From Deinococcales bacterium (GTDB lineage: Bacteria; Deinococcota; Deinococci; Deinococcales; Deinococcaceae), in contig JACMOA010000160.1 in NCBI GenBank assembly GCA_014378225.1, positions 1 through 8,385 of the forward strand: DNA of 8,385 bases, given 5' to 3'. This document shows positions 1 to 8,385 of this stretch, one piece after another (positions within the stretch are counted from its first letter, which is position 1; every line of letters starts with the position of its first letter). The notes below the pieces were generated by a model, which was not told where the DNA came from, ran no database searches, and saw nothing but the letters and a program-made list of their open reading frames with translations. Position numbers and translations under genes: made by a program.

Positions 1-2
1 AC

Positions 3-368
3 AAAGCTGGAGGAATTCGGCTCGAGGTGGTGGGCGAGGGAACGGCAGATGCGGATAAAAGGGCGCTCGAGCGGGCGCTGACCAACCTGGTGGACAATGC
101 GCTACGTTACGCCAAAAGCCGGGTTCGGGTTGCGGTCACTGCCCACGAAATTCGCATTTTTGACGACGGCCCCGGCTTACCGGGAGCGCTCGAGGAACTG
201 GCCCAACCGTTCAACGCGCAGCCCGTCACCATCGCGGGACAGCAGTTTACGGCTGGAACTGGAGGGCTGGGGCTTTACATTGCCCGCCGCATTCTGGAGG
301 CGCACGGCGGGGCGCTCGAGCATGAGAAAACCCAGGTAGGGACGGCGTTAGTGCTGCGGTTGAAGTAA
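3..368 (+). CDS. Sensor histidine kinase, C-terminal ATPase domain (5' partial)
   Basis: This is the C-terminal catalytic (HATPase_c) part of a two-component sensor kinase, which binds ATP and phosphorylates a histidine in the missing upstream half. The frame is open to the left window edge, so the true start, sensor and H-box lie outside. Visible motifs, in order, are the N box (NLVDNALRYA, bases about 84-113), the G1 box (DDGPGL, about 162-179) and the G2 box with its following helix (GTGGLGLYIARRILEAHGG, about 258-314), then a final beta strand typical of the domain end. A GTG at 27 could be called as a start, but coding continues upstream in frame, so it is internal. The stop is TAA at 366-368. 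The partner response regulator is not visible and would be expected upstream. The ligand cannot be inferred. Confidence 0.9.
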   Translation, partial: KAGGIRLEVVGEGTADADKRALERALTNLVDNALRYAKSRVRVAVTAHEIRIFDDGPGLPGALEELAQPFNAQPVTIAGQQFTAGTGGLGLYIARRILEAHGGALEHEKTQVGTALVLRLK

Positions 369-433
369 AGGATACTGAAAGCAAAACTCTCGAGATGAGG
401 ACCAAACCAAGACGCTTTGAGGCGGCTCAAGCG

Positions 434-460
434 CTCTAATCATCAAGGGCGGATTAGAGT
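434..460 (+). promoter_or_regulatory. Leaderless promoter with dyad over the -10 box, upstream of 467
   Basis: TAGAGT (455-460) matches TANNNT and is followed by exactly 6 nt before the ATG at 467, the spacing expected for a leaderless transcript. A perfect 8-bp inverted repeat, CTCTAATC (434-441) and GATTAGAG (452-459), has its right arm on this -10 box. No convincing -35 box is seen at 16-18 bp. If transcription begins at or near the ATG, the dyad would be a DNA operator rather than an RNA hairpin. Alternatively AAGGG (445-449) in the loop could be a distant ribosome binding site on a longer transcript. The promoter role is inferred. Confidence 0.45.
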
Positions 461-466
461 TCCCCT

Positions 467-1039
467 ATGAAAAACTATTCTCTGGTTGCAGCGGGTCTGC
501 TGGTTCTGACCCTGCTGGGCGGCGCTCAAGCGGGCGTTAAAACCACGTTCTACTCGGAAGGCCCCTCGATTCGAGCAGTGACTCGGGTACAAGCGAGTCG
601 GGTACAGGCGACTCCAGTGCGTTATGTGTGGCGTTCGGCGGGCGTCAAGACCCTAAAAACTTACAAAACCTCCGCTCGAGTGCTGAAGACAGTGCAAAAT
701 CCAGGCCGTCAAGGAACTGTGAGACAGGTTCAAGTGGCAGCCTTGGGAGCCTGTGTCCTGCGGACCAATCTTCCGTTCAGTTTTCGCCGGGTATTTGGCA
801 GTGTGGTAACTTACCGCAGCAGTTGTCCCATCGGAACAGTGCGCCTGAAAGTGCGCCTCGAGCCAAAAAGTGCAATCCGGGTGTATCAGGCCGAAAACGT
901 GACCCCACGCATTTATACTCTGCGGCTTTACCGAGTCGCAGCGAATGGCCGTTTGCAGGCCACCAAACAGGTTCGCACCACCACCGTGCTTCAGCGCAGC
1001 CCGGTTTTGAGCACAGTTTCTTTTAAACTCTCGAGCTAA
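467..1039 (+). CDS. Secreted, highly basic protein of unknown function (190 aa)
   Basis: I do not recognise this protein. It starts with a clear Sec signal peptide: a basic start (MKNY), a hydrophobic core at about residues 6-17, and a likely signal peptidase I site after A20-Q21-A22. The mature part is rich in Val, Thr, Ser and Arg and looks like a beta-rich domain. It has about 30 Lys/Arg, only three Glu (31, 132, 143) and no Asp, so its net charge is strongly positive. Two cysteines (C96, C120) could form a disulfide after export. Residues 39-48 carry a tandem five-residue repeat (TRVQA, SRVQA). The basic charge suggests contact with an acidic partner such as envelope polymer or nucleic acid, which is inference only. 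The ATG is supported by the signal peptide and the promoter 6 nt upstream. The gene is convergent with moeA across an inverted repeat. Confidence 0.8.
   Translation: MKNYSLVAAGLLVLTLLGGAQAGVKTTFYSEGPSIRAVTRVQASRVQATPVRYVWRSAGVKTLKTYKTSARVLKTVQNPGRQGTVRQVQVAALGACVLRTNLPFSFRRVFGSVVTYRSSCPIGTVRLKVRLEPKSAIRVYQAENVTPRIYTLRLYRVAANGRLQATKQVRTTTVLQRSPVLSTVSFKLSS
581..610 (+). repeat. Two 15-bp tandem units inside the secreted protein gene
   Basis: ACTCGGGTACAAGCG (581-595) is followed directly by AGTCGGGTACAGGCG (596-610), with a degenerate third beginning at 611. The units keep the reading frame and encode TRVQA and SRVQA. This looks like a small in-frame slippage duplication just after the signal peptide and its short linker. 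Confidence 0.7.
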
Positions 1040-1051
1040 GAAAAAGCGCTC

Positions 1052-1110
1052 TGCAAACGCTGAACGTCCAACGCCTAAAGCTGCTCTGCGTTGGACGTTC
1101 AGCGTTTGCA
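1052..1110. terminator. Perfect 23-bp inverted repeat between convergent genes
   Basis: Arms 1052-1074 and 1088-1110 are exact reverse complements around a 13-nt loop. The left arm begins TGCAAACGCTGAACG and the right arm ends TCAGCGTTTGCA. The repeat starts 3 nt beyond the moeA stop codon and 12 nt beyond the stop of the secreted protein gene. Read on the minus strand, the hairpin is followed 8 nt later by TTTTT, so it can serve as the moeA terminator. On the plus strand only AATTTA follows, a weaker signal. It shares arm sequence with a second element at 4951-5009, so it may belong to a dispersed repeat family used as a bidirectional terminator. Confidence 0.75.
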
Positions 1111-1113
1111 AAT

Positions 1114-2322
1114 TTAGAGCCAAATCACCTCAACCTCGTTTCCCGCTTCCACCTTTTGACCCGCTTCCACCACCACCAGCGCGTTATTCTCGACCATCGA
1201 ACGCAGCACACTCGAGCGCTGGTCTACAAAATCACTCACGGTAGGGTGTCCATTTTCAAACTCGAGTTTGGCCCGCCAGTAGGCCCGTTTGTCTGGCACG
1301 CTCTTGAACGGTGTAGTAGCCCTAGCTTTGAGAATGCGGTGCGGTGCGTCTTTGCGCTCGAGCAACTTATAAAGCGCACTTTTGACGATAATCTCAAACA
1401 CCAGCAAACTCGAGACCGGATTTCCGGGCAGCCCAAACACGGGAAGGTTGTTCCAGCGCCCCAGCATGGCGGGTCCGCCAGGGCGCAGCGCCACCTTCCA
1501 GAACTTCACTTCTCCTCGCTCAATCAATAGGTCGCGCACCAGGTCGTATTTTCCCATGCTCACCCCGCCACTGGTGAGCAATAAATCCACTTCACCCACG
1601 CTCGAGAGGGCGCTTTCCAGCTCCTCTACCCGGTCTACCGTGCGGGGTAGAATGATGGCTTGATGACCCAAAGACCGAATTTTGGCCTCGAGTCCGTAAC
1701 GGTTAGAGTTGTAAACCCCGCCGGGGGGCAAATCCTCGCCCGGTTCGTAAATTTCGTCCCCGGTGCTCAGCAGCGCAATTCTGAGCGGGCGAAAGGTCGG
1801 CACTCGAGGGTGTCCCATCGCCGCACACAGCGCCAGAGTGGACGAATTGAGCAGTGTGCCTCGCGTCAGGCCAATCTGTCCCCGCTCAAAATCCGACCCC
1901 CGTTCACGAATATCCGACGCTCGAGCGGGCTGAAACACCTTCACTCCATTTCCTACAAACTCGAGCTTTTCCACTGGAATAATTCCATTGGCTCCGTCTG
2001 GCACGGGTGCTCCAGTATAAATCCTCACCGCTTCACCCGGTTTCACCCGGCTCGAAAACACCGACCCCGCCGCCACCTCACCCACCAGCTCGAGCAGGGT
2101 TGGACTTTCTGGCGAAGCGTTCAAAGTGTCCTCTACCCGGCAAGCAATCCCGTCCAGGGCGCTGTCATCCAGACTGGGATGGTCCACTAAAGCACTCAAA
2201 TCTCGAGCCAGGGTCAGGCCGTAGGCTTCAGGGAGTGAAACCTCTCGAGCGTCCGGCTGCTTCAATTCGCGCTCGAGAGCCGCTATGGCGTATTCGACAG
2301 AGACGTTCATGGGAAAGGACAT
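1114..2322 (-). CDS. moeA: Molybdopterin molybdenumtransferase MoeA
   Basis: MoeA inserts molybdate into adenylylated molybdopterin in the cytoplasm, the last common step of molybdenum cofactor synthesis. At 402 residues it has the family's usual length. The N-terminal domain carries LDDSALDGIA (51-60), the counterpart of the family SAMDG motif, and YTGAPVPDGAN (102-112). Next are IRERGSDFERGQIG (138-151), LSTGDEI (185-191), YNSNRYGL (204-211), the MPT-binding TSGGVSMGKYD (250-260), FWKVALRPGGP (274-284) and GLPGNPVSS (297-305), then the C-terminal beta domain. The loop usually written KPGKP reads RPGGP here. The start at 2322 is chosen because TATAGT sits 6 nt upstream, so the message is probably leaderless. 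An inner ATG at 2310 is less likely. No other cofactor genes are nearby. It is divergent from the permease pair and convergent with the gene at 467. Confidence 0.95.
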   Translation of the reverse strand: MSFPMNVSVEYAIAALERELKQPDAREVSLPEAYGLTLARDLSALVDHPSLDDSALDGIACRVEDTLNASPESPTLLELVGEVAAGSVFSSRVKPGEAVRIYTGAPVPDGANGIIPVEKLEFVGNGVKVFQPARASDIRERGSDFERGQIGLTRGTLLNSSTLALCAAMGHPRVPTFRPLRIALLSTGDEIYEPGEDLPPGGVYNSNRYGLEAKIRSLGHQAIILPRTVDRVEELESALSSVGEVDLLLTSGGVSMGKYDLVRDLLIERGEVKFWKVALRPGGPAMLGRWNNLPVFGLPGNPVSSLLVFEIIVKSALYKLLERKDAPHRILKARATTPFKSVPDKRAYWRAKLEFENGHPTVSDFVDQRSSVLRSMVENNALVVVEAGQKVEAGNEVEVIWL

Positions 2323-2328
2323 GGGATG

Positions 2329-2360
2329 ACTATAGGGTTTTCGGTTATCCGTTTTCGGTT
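2329..2360 (-). promoter_or_regulatory. moeA leaderless promoter with upstream direct repeat
   Basis: On the minus strand TATAGT (2334-2329) lies 6 nt before the moeA ATG. Just upstream are two identical 9-bp words, AACCGAAAA on the minus strand, at 2338-2346 and 2352-2360, with a 14-bp period. They occupy the place where a -35 box would be expected, and none is recognisable there. They could be binding sites for an activator or repressor. The -10 box is well supported by position; the operator role is inference. Confidence 0.5.
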
Positions 2361-2432
2361 CAGAGATATGGAGCGATTAGCTTAACAGTGTGCTCGAGCA
2401 TTACATGTCTACCAACCCTCTCATACCAAGTT

Positions 2433-2461
2433 GCCTTGAAGAAGTTCCATCTCTTCAAGGC
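2433..2461. repeat. Perfect 10-bp inverted repeat, no T-tract
   Basis: GCCTTGAAGA (2433-2442) and TCTTCAAGGC (2452-2461) pair exactly around a 9-nt loop. Neither side carries a run of T, so it is not a standard intrinsic terminator. It stands alone about 110 bp upstream of the moeA start and 240 bp upstream of the permease start. It could be a structured element of an unseen transcript or a protein-binding dyad. Confidence 0.55.
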
Positions 2462-2575
2462 CGAGTGGAGCGAGAAAACTAGAATACCGGGTTGCTGTTT
2501 TGTATTTCCATCCTGGTGCTTTTTCTGGGGTATAAAGTAATGAAAGCAACTTGATATCACCTGTCTTGGACAAAG

Positions 2576-2618
2576 CGGCACCTACCGGGCGTCTTGGTCT
2601 GAACGGCACCTTCCGGGC
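2576..2618. repeat. 15-bp direct repeat, 14 of 15 identical
   Basis: CGGCACCTACCGGGC (2576-2590) and CGGCACCTTCCGGGC (2604-2618) differ at one base and lie 28 bp apart from start to start. They are about 70-125 bp upstream of the permease promoter, a position compatible with activator binding. Chance duplication is also possible. Confidence 0.5.
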
Positions 2619-2687
2619 TGGGCCGCCTGTCCGCCTCTCACTCTCTCGAGCGAAGCTGCCTCTCCCCCTCCCCTCATCACCTTTCCC

Positions 2688-2693
2688 TATAAT
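2688..2693 (+). promoter_or_regulatory. Consensus -10 box of the permease operon, leaderless
   Basis: A perfect TATAAT is followed by 6 nt (CCCACT) and then the GTG start codon at 2700. There is no Shine-Dalgarno sequence, which fits a transcript starting at the GTG. The expected -35 position lies in a C-rich tract and has no good match, so promoter strength may depend on an upstream factor. Confidence 0.65.
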
Positions 2694-2699
2694 CCCACT

Positions 2700-3758
2700 G
2701 TGCTTTTTAGACAGGTCATCTTGCCACGCTATCTGGTTCGGGAGGTGTGGCCTCTTTTTGCGGCGGGCCTCCTGTTGTTCGTGTTGTTGCTGTTTCTCGA
2801 TGTCATTTCCACGGCAGCGGGTTCTGCACTTAAAAACCAAACCTCCTTTCTCACACTCGGCCAATACTTGCTATCTTATCTGCCCCAGGTGCTGCGCCGC
2901 GCCCTACCGCTGGCGATTCCTTTTGCAGTGCTCCTTGCACTGGGACGACTGGCCAAAGACAGCGAACTCAAGGTGGCTTATGGCGCAGGGGTCAGGCCGC
3001 TGGCCCTGCTGTACCCCCTGATGTTTTTTGGCCTGCTGGTAAGTGCTTTGGCGTTTGTGAACAGTGCGTTCGTTCAGCCCGCTGCCGAAACCCTTTTCAA
3101 ACAGACTCAATACCGAGTTTTTTACAACACAGACTTGCCTCGCTATCAGAACATGTACATTAAAAGTGACGCGGTGAGTGGTGCGCTATTTTACGCTGGA
3201 ACCGTCAATCAAAACGCGGATGGCAGAAGCGCTTTGCTCAGCGGCGTGATGGTCAAGCAAAAAAACAGTACCTATACTGCTTTAAACGGCGTTTGGGACC
3301 TCGAGAGGAAAACCTGGCTGCTCGAGAATGCCACCGAATACCAGAGTCCCGAACTTCCGCCGCGTCAACTTGCTCGAGTAACCTTTCCCTACAAGGCCCC
3401 GCTGCCCACTACCCTGGTTCCCGAAACCCTGAGTCTGAACGTGCTCTGGGATAACCTGCACTCGAGCATCTACAGCGGTACAGAGTTGCGTAAAGCGTGG
3501 TTCGATTTTCACCGCCGCTTTGCAGACGCGCTGACTGCCCTGTTTTTCGTGTTCGCAGCGGGCGCAATTGGGCTGCTGCTCCGCAATCAGGCCGGAGCCT
3601 TCATTGGGGTGGTGCTGATGATTTTTGGCTTTTACGTGGTCTGGACTGCCATGCCCAGTTTGGTGGGCTTTAACGCGCTGGCTCCGTGGCTGGCTGCGTG
3701 GCTGCCCAACTTCATGCTGGGACTGCTGGGCCTGAGCCTGCTGAGGCGCTTGTGGTAA
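2700..3758 (+). CDS. LptF/LptG-family permease, first of tandem pair
   Basis: This is an inner-membrane permease of the LptF/LptG (YjgP/YjgQ) family, whose members pair with the LptB ATPase to lift lipopolysaccharide out of the inner membrane in Proteobacteria. At 352 residues it has normal length and the family plan. Three N-terminal membrane segments lie at about residues 16-36, 53-82 and 98-123. The hallmark segment ALPLAIPFAVLLALGRLAKD (68-87) runs on into SELKVAYGAG. A periplasmic, mainly beta domain of about 150 residues follows, then three C-terminal membrane segments at about 272-350. The start is GTG, fixed by a TATAAT 6 nt upstream and by the family-like opening ILPRYLVREV. The next gene overlaps it by 7 nt, so the two are co-transcribed and probably form a heterodimer. 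Whether it corresponds to LptF or LptG proper cannot be told by eye, so no symbol is given. Confidence 0.88.
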   Translation: MLFRQVILPRYLVREVWPLFAAGLLLFVLLLFLDVISTAAGSALKNQTSFLTLGQYLLSYLPQVLRRALPLAIPFAVLLALGRLAKDSELKVAYGAGVRPLALLYPLMFFGLLVSALAFVNSAFVQPAAETLFKQTQYRVFYNTDLPRYQNMYIKSDAVSGALFYAGTVNQNADGRSALLSGVMVKQKNSTYTALNGVWDLERKTWLLENATEYQSPELPPRQLARVTFPYKAPLPTTLVPETLSLNVLWDNLHSSIYSGTELRKAWFDFHRRFADALTALFFVFAAGAIGLLLRNQAGAFIGVVLMIFGFYVVWTAMPSLVGFNALAPWLAAWLPNFMLGLLGLSLLRRLW

Positions 3759-4894
3759 GCGCTCGAGTGGATAAGCAGGGCGAGCCTCGTCGGAGGCGCT
3801 CGAGCCTGGGTGGACGGCTGGACGCTTACCTGCTGCAAGAGATTTTGCCACTCATGCTGGCCAGTCTGGTGGTGGTGGTGCTGCTGTTCGTACTGTACGC
3901 GCTTTACGAGGTGCTGGCTCCCATCCTAGCCAAAGGCGCGAGTCCACTGCTGGTGGTCCGTCTGATGGCCTTTTCACTACCCGAAGCCTTTGGACGGGCG
4001 CTTCCACTGGCGATGCTCTTTGCGGTGTTGCTGGGCTTTTCTCGGCTCTCGAGCGACGCCGAAATCAAAAGCATTCTGGCTGGAGGCATCGCCCCGCTGC
4101 GGCTGGCGGTTCCTATCATGACCCTCAGCGTGGCGGTGGCCCTGCTGAGTTTTGTCAACAACGAACTCCTGGTTCCTCGAGTGTCCAGTCAAGCTCAACA
4201 AACTCAGCGTGACATCGTGCTGGATAACCCTCGAGTGCTGGTCAGCGAAAAAGCTGTGTTTACCGATAACCTGAACCGGGCTATTATCGTGGACCGCGTG
4301 CTTTCCTCGGACCGACTCGAGGGGATTCAGATTGTGCATATGGCTCCTGGGGAACCCCCGCGTGAAATCATGACCGCAGACGCTGGAAAGCTCGAGCGGG
4401 GAAGCGCCACCATCGTACTGTTCAAGGGAGTTCGGGTGACGTACAGCAGCGCTCAGGTCGTCACCATCACCAATTTTGAAGAGGCCCGACTGCCGGTACG
4501 GGACCTGCAAGCCTCACTGGGACGTAGCACCGGGGCGGGTCAAGCCATGCGGACCCCCACCTCTCAACTTGTAAGCCAAATCCGCGAAAACAAAGCCAAA
4601 GGCTGGGCTACCGCAGACCTCGAGACCGCACTGAACCGCAAGTTTGCCGAACCCTTAGCGGCAGTGGCCTTTGGTTTTTTTGGCGTGATGCTGGCTTTGT
4701 ACACCTTTCGGGCCGGAGCGGGTGTAGGGCTGGTCTGGACCTTACTGCTGACCTTTGCCTACTATGCCACCTGGAGCGTATTTCGGGTGATGGGCGAACA
4801 GGGGGCGCTACCTCCGGTGGTGGCGGCTTGGACCCCAGATTTGCTGTATGTGGTGGGTGGGGCGGTGTTGTGGGCGCTCTCGAGCCGTAGATAA
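3752..4894 (+). CDS. LptF/LptG-family permease, second of tandem pair
   Basis: This is a second LptF/LptG-family membrane protein, expected to partner the preceding one in an ABC-type lipid exporter. It has a basic cytoplasmic N-terminus (RRRR) followed by membrane segment one (PLMLASLVVVVLLFVLYALY). The hallmark RALPLAMLFAVLLGFSRLSS continues into DAEIKSILAGG. The periplasmic beta domain comes next, then three C-terminal membrane segments ending in VVGGAVLWALSSRR. I chose GTG 3752, which has GAGG (3743-3746) five bases upstream and overlaps the previous stop codon by 7 nt, giving 380 residues. The frame is open further up to an ATG at 3686, which would add 22 residues read through the end of the first gene, and GTG 3767 is also possible. 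No LptB-type ATPase is in the window. Confidence 0.86.
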   Translation: MVSARVDKQGEPRRRRSSLGGRLDAYLLQEILPLMLASLVVVVLLFVLYALYEVLAPILAKGASPLLVVRLMAFSLPEAFGRALPLAMLFAVLLGFSRLSSDAEIKSILAGGIAPLRLAVPIMTLSVAVALLSFVNNELLVPRVSSQAQQTQRDIVLDNPRVLVSEKAVFTDNLNRAIIVDRVLSSDRLEGIQIVHMAPGEPPREIMTADAGKLERGSATIVLFKGVRVTYSSAQVVTITNFEEARLPVRDLQASLGRSTGAGQAMRTPTSQLVSQIRENKAKGWATADLETALNRKFAEPLAAVAFGFFGVMLALYTFRAGAGVGLVWTLLLTFAYYATWSVFRVMGEQGALPPVVAAWTPDLLYVVGGAVLWALSSRR

Positions 4895-4950
4895 CAGGCC
4901 CTCGAGGAAACCTCTGACAAAGTTAGACCCAGAACCTTGCTGGCCGCTTT

Positions 4951-5009
4951 ACAAACGCGAACGCTAAGCGCTAAAACAACCTAGACGTTGAGCGTTTGAC
5001 GTTTGCAGT
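4951..5009. repeat. Imperfect inverted repeat related to the 1052-1110 element
   Basis: The left part (4951-4972, ACAAACGCGAACGCTAAGCG then CT) and right part (about 4982-5007, with GACGTTGAGCGTTTG at 4984-4998 and CGTTTGCA at 5000-5007) can pair with gaps. The right part shares GACGTT-N-AGCGTTTG with the right arm of the perfect repeat at 1088-1110. It lies between the permease pair and hemC, where it could end the permease transcript, although no T-run follows. The flanking word GCCGCTTT occurs at 4943-4950 and again at 5019-5026. Confidence 0.5.
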
Positions 5010-5043
5010 TAGGCAGAAGCCGCTTTTAGCGTACCAAACCTAC

Positions 5044-5072
5044 TTTACAACCCTGCCTTCAGAGGGCATAAT
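5044..5072 (+). promoter_or_regulatory. hemC promoter
   Basis: TTTACA (5044-5049) and CATAAT (5067-5072) are separated by 17 bp, the optimal sigma-70-type spacing. The -10 box ends 8 nt before the hemC ATG, so the transcript would be leaderless or nearly so. AGAGGG (5061-5066) resembles a ribosome binding site but is 14 nt from the ATG and overlaps the promoter. This is the most complete promoter in the window. Confidence 0.7.
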
Positions 5073-5080
5073 CATGCGGT

Positions 5081-5986
5081 ATGCGTCAAATTGTTGTTGG
5101 CACGCGGGGCAGTACCCTGGCTCTCGCGCAAACTCGTCAGGTGGTGGCTCGGCTCACTGAAGAGTGGCCCGAAACTGATTTTCGTCTTCAAACCATTCAG
5201 ACACGGGGCGACCTGGAAAAAGGGGTTTTGAAGGGAAATAAGGGCTTTTTCACCTCCGAAATTGAACAAGCTTTGCTCGAAAAGCGCATTGATATTGCGG
5301 TTCACAGCCTTAAAGACCTGCCCACCCAGAACCCTGAAGGTTTGGACATCGCTTCCATTCCGCGCCGGGTGGACGCTCGAGACGTGCTTGTGGGGCGGGC
5401 GGATATGAAATCGCTCAAGGACCTGCCGCCGGGAGCCACAGTAGGCACCTCGAGCGTGCGGCGCAAGGCGTTCCTGCGGGCTTTCCGTCCAGACTTGAAC
5501 GTGATAGACCTGCGCGGCAATGTGGACACCCGCCTCAACGCGCTGGGCAGCGGCGAGTACGACGCCATCATCATCGCGGCGGCGGGCTTGATTCGCATGG
5601 ATTTGCGTCACCGTATTGATGAGTTCATTAGCACCGACATCATGCTTCCGGCTCCTGGTCAGGGCGCACTGGCCCTACAAACCCGGATTGACGATGTGCT
5701 GACCGTCGAGGTGGCCTATTCCATCAACGACCCCGCGACCGACGACCGGGTATCGGCTGAACGCGCCTTTCTCGAGGGGCTATCTGCGGGCTGTATGGCC
5801 CCGGTGGGAGCACTGGCGACTCTACTGGGCGACATTCTCAAACTCGAGGGTTGGGTCTGCGCCCCAGACGGCAGCAATCTGATTCAGGGCAGCATTGAGG
5901 GAGACCCCTCAGAGTGCGAAGACTTGGGCCTCGAGCTGGCCGAGGATATGCTTAAACAGGGTGCCAAGTCGCTGGTAGAGGCGTAG
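5081..5986 (+). CDS. hemC: Hydroxymethylbilane synthase (porphobilinogen deaminase)
   Basis: HemC joins four porphobilinogen molecules into hydroxymethylbilane in the cytoplasm, the step before uroporphyrinogen III in heme and siroheme synthesis. Its 301 residues match the family length. Motifs seen are [11 protein letters not shown] (7-17), [12 protein letters not shown] (55-66), the catalytic HSLKDLPT (75-82, Asp79), VGTSSVRR (121-128), [10 protein letters not shown] (143-152), [10 protein letters not shown] (189-198) and [19 protein letters not shown] (226-244). Cys238 in the last should hold the dipyrromethane cofactor, and it is preceded by AG where GG is usual. All substrate-binding arginines expected from the family are present (R9, R127, R128, R145, R151). 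The gene has its own promoter. It ends in three consecutive in-frame stops (TAG TAG TAA), followed by a hairpin terminator, so it is probably monocistronic. Other heme genes are not in the window. Confidence 0.96.
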
Positions 5987-6016
5987 TAGTAACCTCACAA
6001 CTTCAACTCTAAATAC

Positions 6017-6051
6017 AAGCCCGCTCGAGCCAATAGACCTCGAGCGGGCTT
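6017..6051 (+). terminator. hemC intrinsic terminator built from CTCGAG copies
   Basis: AAGCCCGCTCGAG (6017-6029) and CTCGAGCGGGCTT (6039-6051) form a perfect 13-bp GC-rich stem around the 9-nt loop CCAATAGAC. The downstream bases TTACGTTTCC are T-rich but not a clean run. The position 31 nt after the hemC stop and the stem strength support a terminator. Each arm ends, next to the loop, in a copy of the palindrome CTCGAG. Confidence 0.8.
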
Positions 6052-6078
6052 TACGTTTCCCATGTAATTTTAATTTCT

Positions 6079-6133
6079 CTTTAGTTTGTACACACCTTTA
6101 GTGTGCATAACAGTCTGTATAATTACATACAGA
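6079..6133 (+). promoter_or_regulatory. Promoter with dyad and direct repeats upstream of 6138
   Basis: TATAAT (6118-6123) is a perfect -10 box, 14 nt before the ATG at 6138. A 7-bp inverted repeat, TCTGTAT (6114-6120) and ATACAGA (6127-6133), covers it. Upstream, CTTTAGTTTGTAC (6079-6091) and CTTTAGTGTGCAT (6096-6108) form a direct repeat with a 17-bp period. No clear -35 box is present. The region is AT-rich compared with its surroundings. The arrangement suggests a regulated promoter, with the dyad as a possible repressor site and the direct repeats as a possible activator site; both roles are inferred. Confidence 0.5.
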
Positions 6134-6137
6134 AACT

Positions 6138-6833
6138 ATGTTAAAACGAAGCGCTTACTTTTTAGGGGTCATCAGTGTGGCCTTGACTTGGGGCGGCGGG
6201 TCAGGACTGGCTCAATCCGACGACCTTTTCTTGCTCAAAGTGGCTCCGGTGGCTCGCAAGCTCACCGTCTGGGTGGGAAACAGCACACCGCTAGAATTTC
6301 TCAACCTCGAGCGTATCCGTTTGCAGGACATCACTCCCTATCTCAAACCGGGTAACAATACCCTGCGGCTGAACTGGCAAGGTCTGAATAGCAACGGCGA
6401 CGTTTCCCTGCGAACCCAGAGCGGCGAGGTGCTGCTCAACTACGTTCTGGATGAAACACGCCAACCCATGAACGGCAGCGTTCGCTTTACAGTTTTTCTT
6501 GAGGGCAAACAAAAAATTCTGGCCGCCCGCTCAAGCGAAACCCTCAGTCTGGGCGAGGCACAGCTCAACGTTACCCTCTCGAGTGGAATCCTGACCCTGA
6601 CCCTGAACGGACAGTATCTGGGTGATTATGCAGGAACCAGTAACAGGGTCTTGCAAAATCTCAAACGCGGAACCAACCTGCTTAAAGTTCGCTGGAAAAA
6701 AGATTTTGGGGTGTCTCTACCGTTGGGTGCGCTCGAGCTGAAAAACAGTGACAATACCCAAATTTTAATGTGGAACACAGATAAAGTTCGCAGTCTCGAG
6801 GGTGAAGAGACACTGACTTTCAAATACCCATAA
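6138..6833 (+). CDS. Secreted protein with two 80-residue beta repeats, function unknown
   Basis: I do not recognise this 231-residue protein. It begins with a Sec signal peptide: MLKR, a hydrophobic core at about residues 6-18, and a probable cleavage after GLA (23-25). The rest is beta-rich and consists of two similar halves, residues 41-120 and 151-230, joined by a 30-residue linker. Matching anchors are LTVWV and LTLTL at the starts, LKPGNNTLRLNW (69-80) and LKRGTNLLKVRW (175-186), and SVRFTVF and TLTFKY at the ends. The LKPGNN pattern recalls beta-sandwich ligand-binding modules, but this is only a resemblance. There are no cysteines and no lipobox, so it should be soluble in the periplasm or outside the cell. 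The ATG is supported by the signal peptide, with no strong ribosome binding site. It follows the hemC terminator and is convergent with obg. Confidence 0.8.
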   Translation: MLKRSAYFLGVISVALTWGGGSGLAQSDDLFLLKVAPVARKLTVWVGNSTPLEFLNLERIRLQDITPYLKPGNNTLRLNWQGLNSNGDVSLRTQSGEVLLNYVLDETRQPMNGSVRFTVFLEGKQKILAARSSETLSLGEAQLNVTLSSGILTLTLNGQYLGDYAGTSNRVLQNLKRGTNLLKVRWKKDFGVSLPLGALELKNSDNTQILMWNTDKVRSLEGEETLTFKYP

Positions 6834-6973
6834 TTGGGTAGTGGGTCAGGATTGAATGCCAACCCCAAGATTGTGTAGAGTCGGTATACCTAAAATCCCT
6901 GCTCGAGCATTCTAGATATACCCACGCCTCTTTTTTTCCCCGAGCGGAGGCCAGAATCCTAAACTCGAGCGCC
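6834..6973. other. Convergent intergenic region between secreted protein gene and obg
   Basis: No gene is seen here. TACCCA (6825-6830) and TGGGTA (6835-6840) form a small 6-bp hairpin over the stop codon of the left gene. GGTATA (6884-6889) can pair with TATACC (6917-6922) around two CTCGAG-containing turns. A T7 run lies at 6931-6937, in the plus orientation, downstream of that pairing. A plus-strand terminator is therefore possible but weak. I see no good terminator for obg on the minus strand. Confidence 0.4.
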
Positions 6974-8257
6974 TTAATCGTCGGTAAAATACTCGAACAC
7001 AAAGTCGCCAATCCGCACATTATCCCCTGGTACGGCCCCAGCCCTCGCCAGACCAGAATATAGACCTTCGCGCTTGAACACCGTTTGTAGGTAGTCCACC
7101 GCGTCGTTCAAGTGGCGCTTGAAGCGGTTCAAACGGGCCTCAAACGGCCCTCCACGCACCACCCAGGTGCGCTCTTCGCCTTCTACCACCAGCTCGAGCG
7201 TGAGGCGCTCAATCCGCACTTCTTCACTCATTTCCTCGAGCGAGTGGGTTTGCGCCCACAGCTCACGGTCCGGCATCATCTCGAACAGGGTATCACGGAT
7301 TTTTTCCAGACCCGTTCCCTCGAGCGCACTAATCGGGACGATGGGCAGGCCAAAATCCAGCAGCTCCTCGTTCACCATCTCAATCTCGTCACCCTCGAGC
7401 AAATCCACCTTGTTCAGCGCGATGAGTGCCGCACTCTCGAGCAGTCGGGGGTCGTAAGCCTCGAGTTCACCCTGAAGCGCTTTGAGGGTGGTTTTGGGGT
7501 CTCCATCGGCGGCCACCACGTAAATCAGCAGGCGCGTTCGGGAGATGTGGCGCAGGAACTCGAGGCCCAGCCCCTTACCCAGACTCGCGCCCTCGATAAT
7601 TCCGGGAATATCGGCCAGGGTGAAGCGCTCGAAGGTGTTGAGTTCGCCGCGCTCCACCACGCCCAGAATAGGGGAGAGGGTGGTAAACGGGTACGCTGCA
7701 ATCTCTGGGTTAGCCCTCGAGAGCGCCGCCAGCAAACTGGATTTGCCCGCGTTGGGGTAGCCTACCAGACCCACATCTGCAATAAGCCTTAGCTCGAGCC
7801 GGATTTTGCGGCGCTCCCCGATGCTGCCCTGCTCGGCAAAACGCGGAGCCTGACGCACGGCATTTACAAAAGCGCTGTTACCGCGCCCTCCGGTTCCGGC
7901 TTTGGCCACCCGCTTGACCTGACCCACTTCAATCAGGTCCGCAATCACCATACCGTTGTCGGCATCGAAGGCGGTGGTTCCCACCGGAACGTCAACAATC
8001 AAATCAGGACCGTCTGCTCCGTTGCGAAGGCGGCCTTCACCGTATCTACCATGTGCAGCGCGGTATTTGCGCTGACCCACCAAATCTTCCAGGCTGGTCA
8101 CATTGTTGACGGCACGCAGATAAACCGTGCCGCCTTTTCCGCCGTGTCCGCCGTCAGAGCCGCCTTTGGGCATATATTTAGCGCGGTGAAAACTCATTGC
8201 GCCGTCGCCACCGTTTCCGGCGACCACTTCGATTTCTAAAATGTCACGAAAGGCCAT
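6974..8257 (-). CDS. obg: Obg/CgtA ribosome-associated GTPase
   Basis: Obg is an essential GTPase that binds the large ribosomal subunit and links ribosome assembly to growth and stress signals. Its 427 residues show the full three-domain plan. The glycine-rich Obg fold covers 1-158, with repeats such as [20 protein letters not shown] (14-33) and GGHGGKGG. The G domain has the P-loop GYPNAGKS (166-173), FTT (191-193), DIPG (216-219), NKVD (282-285) and SALEG (310-314). The C-terminal OCT domain lies at about 345-425 and ends FVFEYFTDD. The ATG at 8257 is the only possible start, because an in-frame TAG lies 12 nt upstream, and AGGAGG sits 5 nt before it. That sequence is inside a hairpin. obg often follows rplU and rpmA, but no L27 ending is recognisable in the remaining 128 bp. 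Confidence 0.97.
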
Positions 8258-8261
8258 GATT

Positions 8262-8276
8262 GCCTCCTACGGAGGC
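8262..8276 (-). promoter_or_regulatory. obg Shine-Dalgarno sequence within a hairpin
   Basis: On the minus strand GCCTCC (8276-8271) and GGAGGC (8267-8262) pair perfectly around a GTA loop. The consensus Shine-Dalgarno AGGAGG (8268-8263) lies almost wholly in the second arm, five bases before the obg ATG. In the folded message the ribosome site would be masked. This is the only gene here with a strong Shine-Dalgarno sequence, in contrast to the leaderless neighbours. Confidence 0.7.
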
Positions 8277-8385
8277 GCAGAGAGCTGAGAGCGGAAGGCA
8301 GAGAGCTTTTTGCTTGGCTCTGTCTTGCGCTCGAGCCTGTTCACGCCTCGAGAATATGAGTGTCCGATTCTCCGCGCAGTCCCAC
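8277..8385. other. Region upstream of obg with short direct repeats
   Basis: GCAGAGAGCT occurs at 8277-8286 and again at 8298-8307, and related words (GAGAGC, GGAAGGC) fill the space between. The region also has CTCGAG at 8330 and 8347. On the minus strand an open frame of 14 codons runs in from the right edge and stops at 8341, which could be the end of an upstream gene but is too short to identify. No clear promoter for obg is seen. Confidence 0.35.

Follow-up and report, generated by a model that had tools for sequence, protein, structure and literature searches.

CTCGAG is a genome-wide iterated palindrome of the HIP1 type in a Deinococcales bacterium and its relatives, possibly spread by natural transformation

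The closest described counterparts of the word analyzed here are HIP1 (GCGATCGC) of the cyanobacteria, which was reportedly first described in 1995 and whose origin is still debated, and the uptake words DUS of the Neisseriaceae and USS of the Pasteurellaceae. We know of no uptake word that is a palindrome. According to PMC3630211, DUS and USS are asymmetric words of 9-12 bases, dialects of DUS exist among the Neisseriaceae, and most of these dialects are present in 943-3,603 copies. Here we describe the word CTCGAG in a Deinococcales bacterium and its relatives; the open-access literature searched yielded no report of it as an iterated palindrome or an uptake word. The phylum includes transformable laboratory strains.

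CTCGAG copies in the window

The window, the whole stretch of DNA that was analyzed, comprises 8,385 nt (contig JACMOA010000160.1, positions 1 to 8,385, assembly GCA_014378225.1, Deinococcales bacterium). A word count revealed 61 copies of CTCGAG between positions 21 and 8352, compared with a mean of 2.42 and a largest value of 6 in 200 dinucleotide shuffles. With eight ORFs taken as genes, codon phases 0, 1 and 2 account for 30, 10 and 11 copies, and the other 10 fall outside genes; 29 of the genic copies belong to plus-strand and 22 to minus-strand genes. Both statements of the preliminary description, that about 61 copies far exceed chance and that they use three codon phases, both gene orientations and intergenic DNA, were therefore borne out. 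The copies found by word count, with no strand assigned, are:

21..26, CTCGAG copy 1
66..71, CTCGAG copy 2
189..194, CTCGAG copy 3
315..320, CTCGAG copy 4
389..394, CTCGAG copy 5
675..680, CTCGAG copy 6
857..862, CTCGAG copy 7
1030..1035, CTCGAG copy 8
1211..1216, CTCGAG copy 9
1261..1266, CTCGAG copy 10
1357..1362, CTCGAG copy 11
1409..1414, CTCGAG copy 12
1601..1606, CTCGAG copy 13
1687..1692, CTCGAG copy 14
1803..1808, CTCGAG copy 15
1920..1925, CTCGAG copy 16
1960..1965, CTCGAG copy 17
2089..2094, CTCGAG copy 18
2202..2207, CTCGAG copy 19
2244..2249, CTCGAG copy 20
2272..2277, CTCGAG copy 21
2393..2398, CTCGAG copy 22
2645..2650, CTCGAG copy 23
3300..3305, CTCGAG copy 24
3321..3326, CTCGAG copy 25
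3373..3378, CTCGAG copy 26
3461..3466, CTCGAG copy 27
3762..3767, CTCGAG copy 28
3799..3804, CTCGAG copy 29
4048..4053, CTCGAG copy 30
4176..4181, CTCGAG copy 31
4230..4235, CTCGAG copy 32
4316..4321, CTCGAG copy 33
4391..4396, CTCGAG copy 34
4619..4624, CTCGAG copy 35
4879..4884, CTCGAG copy 36
4901..4906, CTCGAG copy 37
5376..5381, CTCGAG copy 38
5449..5454, CTCGAG copy 39
5771..5776, CTCGAG copy 40
5843..5848, CTCGAG copy 41
5930..5935, CTCGAG copy 42
6024..6029, CTCGAG copy 43
6039..6044, CTCGAG copy 44
6306..6311, CTCGAG copy 45
6578..6583, CTCGAG copy 46
6732..6737, CTCGAG copy 47
6795..6800, CTCGAG copy 48
6902..6907, CTCGAG copy 49
6964..6969, CTCGAG copy 50
7193..7198, CTCGAG copy 51
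7235..7240, CTCGAG copy 52
7319..7324, CTCGAG copy 53
7394..7399, CTCGAG copy 54
7436..7441, CTCGAG copy 55
7460..7465, CTCGAG copy 56
7559..7564, CTCGAG copy 57
7716..7721, CTCGAG copy 58
7793..7798, CTCGAG copy 59
8330..8335, CTCGAG copy 60
8347..8352, CTCGAG copy 61

Excess in the genome and among its relatives

The draft genome from which the window was taken (G000, 1.94 Mb, 59% complete) contains 14,690 copies, one per 132 bases and about 68-fold over the expectation of a second-order Markov model with CTCGAG masked. The count against a Markov model that had been proposed as a check thus shows a genome-wide enrichment, not one confined to the window. In a sample of 98,959 bases 862 copies were observed and 11.0 expected under the same model, with a density of 1/113 in coding and 1/121 in non-coding DNA. 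CTCGAG is the sole strongly enriched 6-base palindrome, and the remaining 63 are about three-fold depleted when pooled. The mirror word GAGCTC is present in 2 copies in the draft. As it is near-absent from the six richest genomes and hence itself avoided, it was dropped as a neutral control. GAGCCC is likewise near-absent from these six genomes, GDGCHC as a whole is near-absent from G002 and G004, and G007 has 30 copies of GGGCCC against 41 expected.

CTCGAG was counted in 111 genomes, and observed/expected ratios corrected for composition were calculated for 21 of them. The excess is 35-69 fold in one congener and in four members of a second family, and smaller in others (for example 26-fold in G096, 12-fold in G001, 6.5-fold in G024 and 4.4-fold in G046). 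Samples of six genomes gave 34-83 fold with the masked second-order model, and seven genomes hold 13,000-28,000 copies each. Two Deinococcus plasmid pieces contain the word without excess (0.6 and 0.6). The flanking base varies by lineage, involving one base on each side in some lineages: these dialects are CCTCGAGG in Thermus, where it accounts for 75 of the 86 copies counted in 100 kb of plasmid pTT27 from Thermus thermophilus, and GCTCGAGC elsewhere. The palindrome occurs in all codon phases and in coding as well as non-coding DNA, in the window and in samples of six genomes, which places the effect at the level of the DNA word, and it is common to the relatives. Taken together, CTCGAG is a genome-wide iterated palindrome like HIP1, as had been claimed.

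The word fills most of the places that proteins permit: it occupies 449 of the 543 Leu-Glu pairs sampled. In samples from the six richest genomes Leu-Glu itself is 2.1-2.6 times as frequent as expected, so that CTCGAG clearly illustrates how proteins are reshaped by a DNA word. Where amino acids differ, 1 of 21 sites was shared; turnover of the word goes with the protein sequence. The proposed conservation of copies at synonymous sites was consequently not what we observed: there is saturation wherever the protein allows it, and positions are not conserved. The seven comEC loci of genus g12 have 3-5 sites each, too few for a site-retention test. A test for even spacing showed near-random spacing instead. 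Counts of the nine one-step neighbours of CTCGAG, pooled over six genomes, were 0.72-1.86 of expectation, with CTTGAG in excess (1.58, and 1.45 in the three genomes without DprA described below). No one-step precursor was drained in these six genomes, and a repair process converting a single precursor into CTCGAG was rejected for this reason.

Transformation genes and CTCGAG density

The hypothesis of an involvement of transformation came from the pattern of ComEC, ahead of the search for DprA. Near-complete genomes, defined by completeness of 90% or more and contamination of 5% or less, make up 85 of the 111. DprA was found in 82 of these and not found in three (G003, G105 and G110, belonging to three genera and two families), which have the three lowest CTCGAG densities of all 111 genomes (297, 283 and 289 per Mb). 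The next-lowest density, 506 per Mb, belongs to a 67% complete genome, and the next near-complete genome has 627. The chance of this coincidence is 1 in 98,770 with kinship ignored; none of the three shows the excess, in a comparison that takes no account of kinship and genome size. Their genomes are small (1.8-2.3 Mb), and they are again the three lowest among the 26 near-complete genomes of at most 2.3 Mb. Relatives of these genomes retain both DprA and the word: G104 and G106 of genus g29 have about 1,400 copies per Mb, and G001 and G002 of family f1, which also have ComEC, have 3,566 and 6,248 per Mb. ComEC was not found in G003 and G110 and was present in G105 as two contig-end pieces. 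In the same three genomes the other 63 palindromes are no longer avoided (observed/expected 0.92-0.95, and 0.26-0.51 in the six richest genomes), as would be predicted for a single filter on incoming DNA that governs both the word and this avoidance.

The correspondence is not complete among all genomes. ComEC is missing from six near-complete genomes, of which three (G018, G088 and G089) are no poorer in CTCGAG than their ComEC-bearing kin, and G108 has both genes and an excess of only 2.4-fold. Five genomes without a DprA match (G000, G011, G078, G079 and G107), all less than 90% complete, keep 1,242-7,585 copies per Mb; neither gene was found in G000 at its 59% completeness. Since the three near-complete genomes without DprA are the three poorest, DNA intake from relatives likely maintains the word. 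Among the causes listed in the preliminary description, one of the recombination type comes closest, in that loss of the word accompanies loss of transformation genes, a link drawn by comparison of genomes.

Possible causes and known systems

The explanation that we consider best, with our judgment about evenly divided, is that the excess results from molecular drive via natural transformation, the word being preferred in uptake or recombination. Incoming fragments carrying CTCGAG would be preferentially taken up or recombined, and a fragment replacing its homologue would add or restore one copy. By repeated replacement the word would spread wherever the protein tolerates it, untied to positions, and it may serve as a tag marking DNA as own kind. 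We infer that transformation is the likely cause and uptake or recombination the likely biased step, with a receptor or enzyme likely reading CTCGAG. Competence alone is not sufficient: D. radiodurans is transformable, but the two Deinococcus plasmid pieces lack an excess. The undrained neighbour words speak for drive, a graded excess of mismatched forms being described for uptake sequences in PMC1939737, and so does the resemblance of the flanking-base dialects to those of Neisseriaceae uptake sequences. Counting against drive are the excess of CTTGAG also in the three poorest genomes, the uneven spacing, the non-palindromic form of the uptake words known to us and the five less complete genomes that keep the word without DprA. 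For Thermus thermophilus, DNA uptake is reported to show no sequence preference (PMC6561018), yet the plasmid pTT27 of this species carries the dialect word CCTCGAGG.

As the three poorest genomes are small, relaxed selection could account for the loss of both the word and the genes. On this basis CTCGAG might be the site of a chromosome-organizing, repair or recombination protein under ordinary selection, lost together with competence in three small-genome lineages, an alternative that we regard as rather unlikely. The loss does coincide with genomes of 1.8-2.3 Mb, and HIP1 too is described as low in obligate symbionts (PMC4390886), but G046, at 2.2 Mb, has DprA and keeps its 4.4-fold excess, and among the 26 near-complete genomes of at most 2.3 Mb the 23 with DprA all have densities no less than double those of the three poorest (uncorrected for composition). 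The positions are moreover not conserved where amino acids differ, and known chromosome-organizing sites are much sparser than one copy per 130 bases. A pure bias of mutation or replication toward CTCGAG, unlinked to transformation, would agree with the similar coding and non-coding densities and the near-random spacing; we consider it highly improbable, because neighbours at 0.72-1.86 of expectation accompany a word at 34-83 fold, and the DprA pattern would be left unexplained.

Methylation-coupled repair, the proposal of Elhai for HIP1, would involve a CTCGAG-specific, often orphan methyltransferase, with methyl-directed mismatch repair preserving mutations that create the word. We assign it a similarly low probability as the protein site. 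Alternate HIPs are described as accompanying matching methyltransferases (PMC4390886), and a search of 10 enriched genomes yielded C5 methyltransferases (PF00145) in 7 of them (G001, G002, G004-G007 and G033); the three poorest genomes have neither these nor D12 enzymes (PF02086). However, no methyltransferase group covers every enriched genome searched: PF00145 was not found in G024, G096 and G046, nor PF02086 in G001 or G096, and the sole C5 enzyme of G001 shares 23-32% identity with its counterparts elsewhere. When 81 ORFs were clustered at 30% identity, D12 proteins left out, the widest cluster, a mix of C5 enzymes, spanned 7 genomes. The absence of a drained precursor also argues against this repair. 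The search for the suggested CTCGAG methyltransferase covered five Pfam families and gave no group common to all enriched genomes searched; specificities cannot be read from these enzymes, and G000 is incomplete. A PDB search placed the C5 enzyme of G005 nearest to M.HhaI and M.HaeIII, which does not settle its specificity, and NCBIfam named none of 10 methyltransferases as a CTCGAG enzyme.

Molecular drive by transformation leads to a wider reading, which we offer as a tentative possibility: CTCGAG would be the first palindromic DNA uptake word, with the dialects CCTCGAGG in Thermus and GCTCGAGC elsewhere, which transformation drives so strongly that it occupies the majority of the codon pairs open to it and alters proteins, and HIP1 may then be of the same kind.

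CTCGAG is identical to the XhoI/PaeR7I restriction site. These genomes avoid other words of the restriction type (GATC in G000, CCGG in G002, GGCC in G004-G006), whereas CTCGAG is enriched. With DUS and USS it shares thousands of copies, lineage dialects and a tie to transformation genes, in its case by comparison of genomes. In contrast to these asymmetric words it is a palindrome of 6-8 bases, six with a flanking base on each side in some lineages, it reaches higher copy numbers in seven genomes (13,000-28,000), and its role in uptake is conjectural. HIP1 and its alternates are the nearest match, being genome-wide palindromes shared by a lineage, with observed/expected ratios in the tens or more, a 6-mer core whose flanking base matters in some lineages, and low numbers in some reduced genomes. 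CTCGAG differs from HIP1 in phylum and word, in that no methyltransferase common to all carriers was found, and in that its loss accompanies missing DprA. The 6-mer occurs at about 7,600 per Mb, whereas most cyanobacteria carry the 8-mer HIP1 at 300-2,700 per Mb (PMC4390886). CTCGAG is thus an independent and denser HIP-like case, in which the loss together with DprA provides a comparative lead that makes one mechanism testable.

Size and range of the CTCGAG excess

The window contains 61 copies of CTCGAG, compared with 2.42 expected from dinucleotide shuffles. According to Pfam its genes are ordinary and comprise the end of a histidine-kinase ATPase, MoeA, two LptF/LptG permeases, porphobilinogen deaminase and Obg. 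Two open reading frames gave no Pfam match:

467-1039: open reading frame, N-terminus signal-peptide-like by eye
6138-6833: open reading frame, N-terminus signal-peptide-like by eye

The draft genome G000 (1.94 Mb, 59% complete) consists of 396 contigs, of which the window is one. The closest named record found, a 'Deinococcales bacterium' MAG contig of 3,760 bases with 76% identity in Obg, carries 29 copies.

The expectation was calculated by a second-order Markov model with CTCGAG masked, using samples of 56-140 kb per genome. The word was enriched 78 fold in G000, 83 in G002, 66 in G004, 63 in G005, 60 in G006 and 34 in G007, the six richest genomes; 22 fold in G096, 12 in G001 and G033, 6.7 in G024 and G022 and 5.1 in G046; and 1.7 fold in G105 and G110 and 0.8 fold in G003, the three word-poor genomes. 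Whole-genome counts over the same expectation (21 genomes computed) gave 68, 69, 67, 67, 56 and 35 fold for the six richest. Despite GC contents from 0.44 to 0.59, sampled densities in these six remain within 1/115 to 1/180, and the excess is thus not explained by composition. Their remaining 63 palindromes pooled reached 0.26-0.51 of expectation, a few being mildly high, e.g. AGCGCT in G000 and TGATCA in G002.

Among the 111 genomes of the phylum, the top six densities (5,904-7,585 per Mb) belong to G000, G002 and the four members of a second family; G001 comes next with 3,566 per Mb. The base flanking CTCGAG varies by lineage: C in 92% in G046 and 70% in G001, and G in 95% in G099, but with only 20 copies there; no clear preference was found in G004 and G005. 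The two flanks are about independent, and self-complementary flanks are somewhat too few in the six richest. In G046, 65 of 76 copies lie in CCTCGAGG; TCGA is avoided in this genome (O/E 0.18 with CTCGAG masked, L259-L262) and CTCGAG is spared. CCTCGAGG also accounts for 75 of 86 copies in two 50-kb pieces of pTT27 from T. thermophilus HB8 (8-mer expectation 14.1, unmasked model), and A. silvanus pMESIL01 contains 158 copies in 100 kb versus 43 expected (unmasked model). No excess was found in two Deinococcus species, one 50-kb plasmid piece each.

Enrichment of the DNA word

The enrichment acts at the level of the DNA word. The preliminary description had placed CTCGAG in all codon phases and in both coding and non-coding DNA, and the G000 sample agrees, with similar densities (1/113 coding, 1/121 non-coding) and 449, 114 and 147 copies in the three phases. 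The two densities are less alike elsewhere (1/165 versus 1/210 in G004, 1/168 versus 1/119 in G007). Relative to background codon usage, synonymous choice favored the word in six genomes 7-43 fold in phase 0, 16-33 fold in phase 1 and 14-30 fold in phase 2. CTCGAG spells 449 of 543 Leu-Glu pairs in the G000 sample, and this pair occurs at 2.1-2.6 times expectation in the six richest genomes compared with 1.05-1.21 in the three word-poor ones; the reversed pair Glu-Leu is at 0.86-1.10 in the six richest. In G096, with the word at 22 fold, Leu-Glu is merely at 1.14.

Individual copies are not bound to fixed places. Alignment of four window genes with G002 (62-70% identity) provided 36 comparable sites, and the word was common to both at 12 of 15 sites with the same amino acids and at 1 of 21 with differing ones; the number of sites with conserved amino acids (15) is no different from that expected from the background (16.0). 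With G001 (three genes) the corresponding values were 4 of 9 and 0 of 13. Gaps between copies are near random placement, with very short gaps too few. In G000, G005 and G006, counts per 300 bases are slightly even; G004 shows some clustering at 1,200-2,400 bases and G006 at 2,400. The nine one-step neighbors of CTCGAG, pooled over the six genomes, range from 0.72 to 1.86, and no word among them is drained. The transition neighbors reached 1.76 (TTCGAG), 1.86 (CCCGAG) and 1.58 (CTTGAG) versus 1.01, 1.12 and 1.45 in the word-poor genomes.

Methyltransferases and transformation genes

Methyltransferases were searched with PF07669, PF01555, PF00145 and PF02384 in 14 genomes and with PF02086 in 111. 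The proposal that a conserved CTCGAG methyltransferase keeps the word up predicts that C5 and D12 enzymes are absent from the three word-poor genomes, and none was found there. Many methyltransferases are present in most enriched genomes; no group common to all enriched genomes searched was found in the five families. C5 was not found in the enriched G024, G096 and G046, nor D12 in G001 and G096, and these gaps make a conserved enzyme less likely. Clustering of 81 extracted open reading frames at 30% identity yielded no group spanning all enriched genomes; the widest, a C5 mix from G001, G002, G004-G007 and G033, splits into subgroups, its G001 member showing 23-32% identity to the others. None of the five families gave a match in the 59% complete G000.

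In 53 methyltransferase loci of G002 and G004-G007 (among L083-L171, some overlapping), presumably mobile, CTCGAG occurs at 73-87% of the sampled density of their own genomes and the mirror word GAGCTC was not found. This density and the lack of GAGCTC suggest that the restriction-modification genes have resided there for long or have been exchanged between word-rich lineages. GAGCTC and GAGCCC are almost missing from all six richest genomes. GATC is nearly missing in G000 (O/E 0.07 in the sample L023-L042, 0 in the window), and the sister genomes instead lack different words of the restriction type, namely CCGG (G002), GGCC (G004-G006) or CCWGG (G007).

A possible role of transformation was noted from ComEC (PF03772) first, and DprA (PF02481) was searched afterwards. 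ComEC matched in 100 of 111 genomes; it was not found in G003 and G110 and consists of two contig-end pieces in G105. Three of the five genomes of genus g29 (G103, G105, G106) carry it in two parts close to contig ends, as would be seen if the gene or its assembly were interrupted by a repeat or an insertion. The six near-complete genomes (at least 90% complete, at most 5% contaminated) without ComEC showed a CTCGAG O/E of 0.8 (G003), 2.0 (G018), 2.2 (G088), 2.1 (G089), 1.3 (G100) and 1.5 (G110), compared with 4.4-69 in 12 of 14 sampled near-complete genomes with a match, which were picked by us; the exceptions are G108 (2.4) and G105 (1.3). As G018, G088 and G089 have no fewer copies per Mb than their ComEC-bearing kin, the informative cases are limited to G003, G110 and perhaps G100.

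DprA matched in 103 of 111 genomes and in 82 of the 85 near-complete ones. The three near-complete genomes without it, G003, G105 and G110, are exactly the three CTCGAG-poorest of all 111. Three genomes drawn at random from the 85 would be these three once in 98,770 draws, a figure weakened by kinship and by the fact that we were already interested in them. The word is kept in the remaining five genomes without a match (G000, G011, G078, G079, G107), which are 59-89% complete. Both genes are present in G001, G002 and G004-G007.

Possible molecular drive and the likeness to HIP1

We regard molecular drive through natural transformation as the likeliest cause of the excess, with about an even chance of being right, a reading based on genome comparison. 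Fragments bearing CTCGAG would enter the cell or recombine more often than others, and the filter on incoming DNA would act both ways, favoring CTCGAG and disfavoring other palindromes. Palindrome avoidance is lost in the same three word-poor genomes, where the 63 other palindromes are near expectation (0.92-0.95), and this fits such a two-way filter. Restriction may act at the filter step. Against drive speak the small genomes of these three, the missing excess in the Deinococcus plasmid pieces, and DNA uptake in T. thermophilus, reported as non-specific (PMC6561018).

The preliminary description had likened CTCGAG to HIP1, the highly iterated palindrome of cyanobacteria. This likeness is borne out genome-wide: the 14,690 copies in the G000 draft, 68 fold by whole-genome count, show that CTCGAG has HIP-like status.
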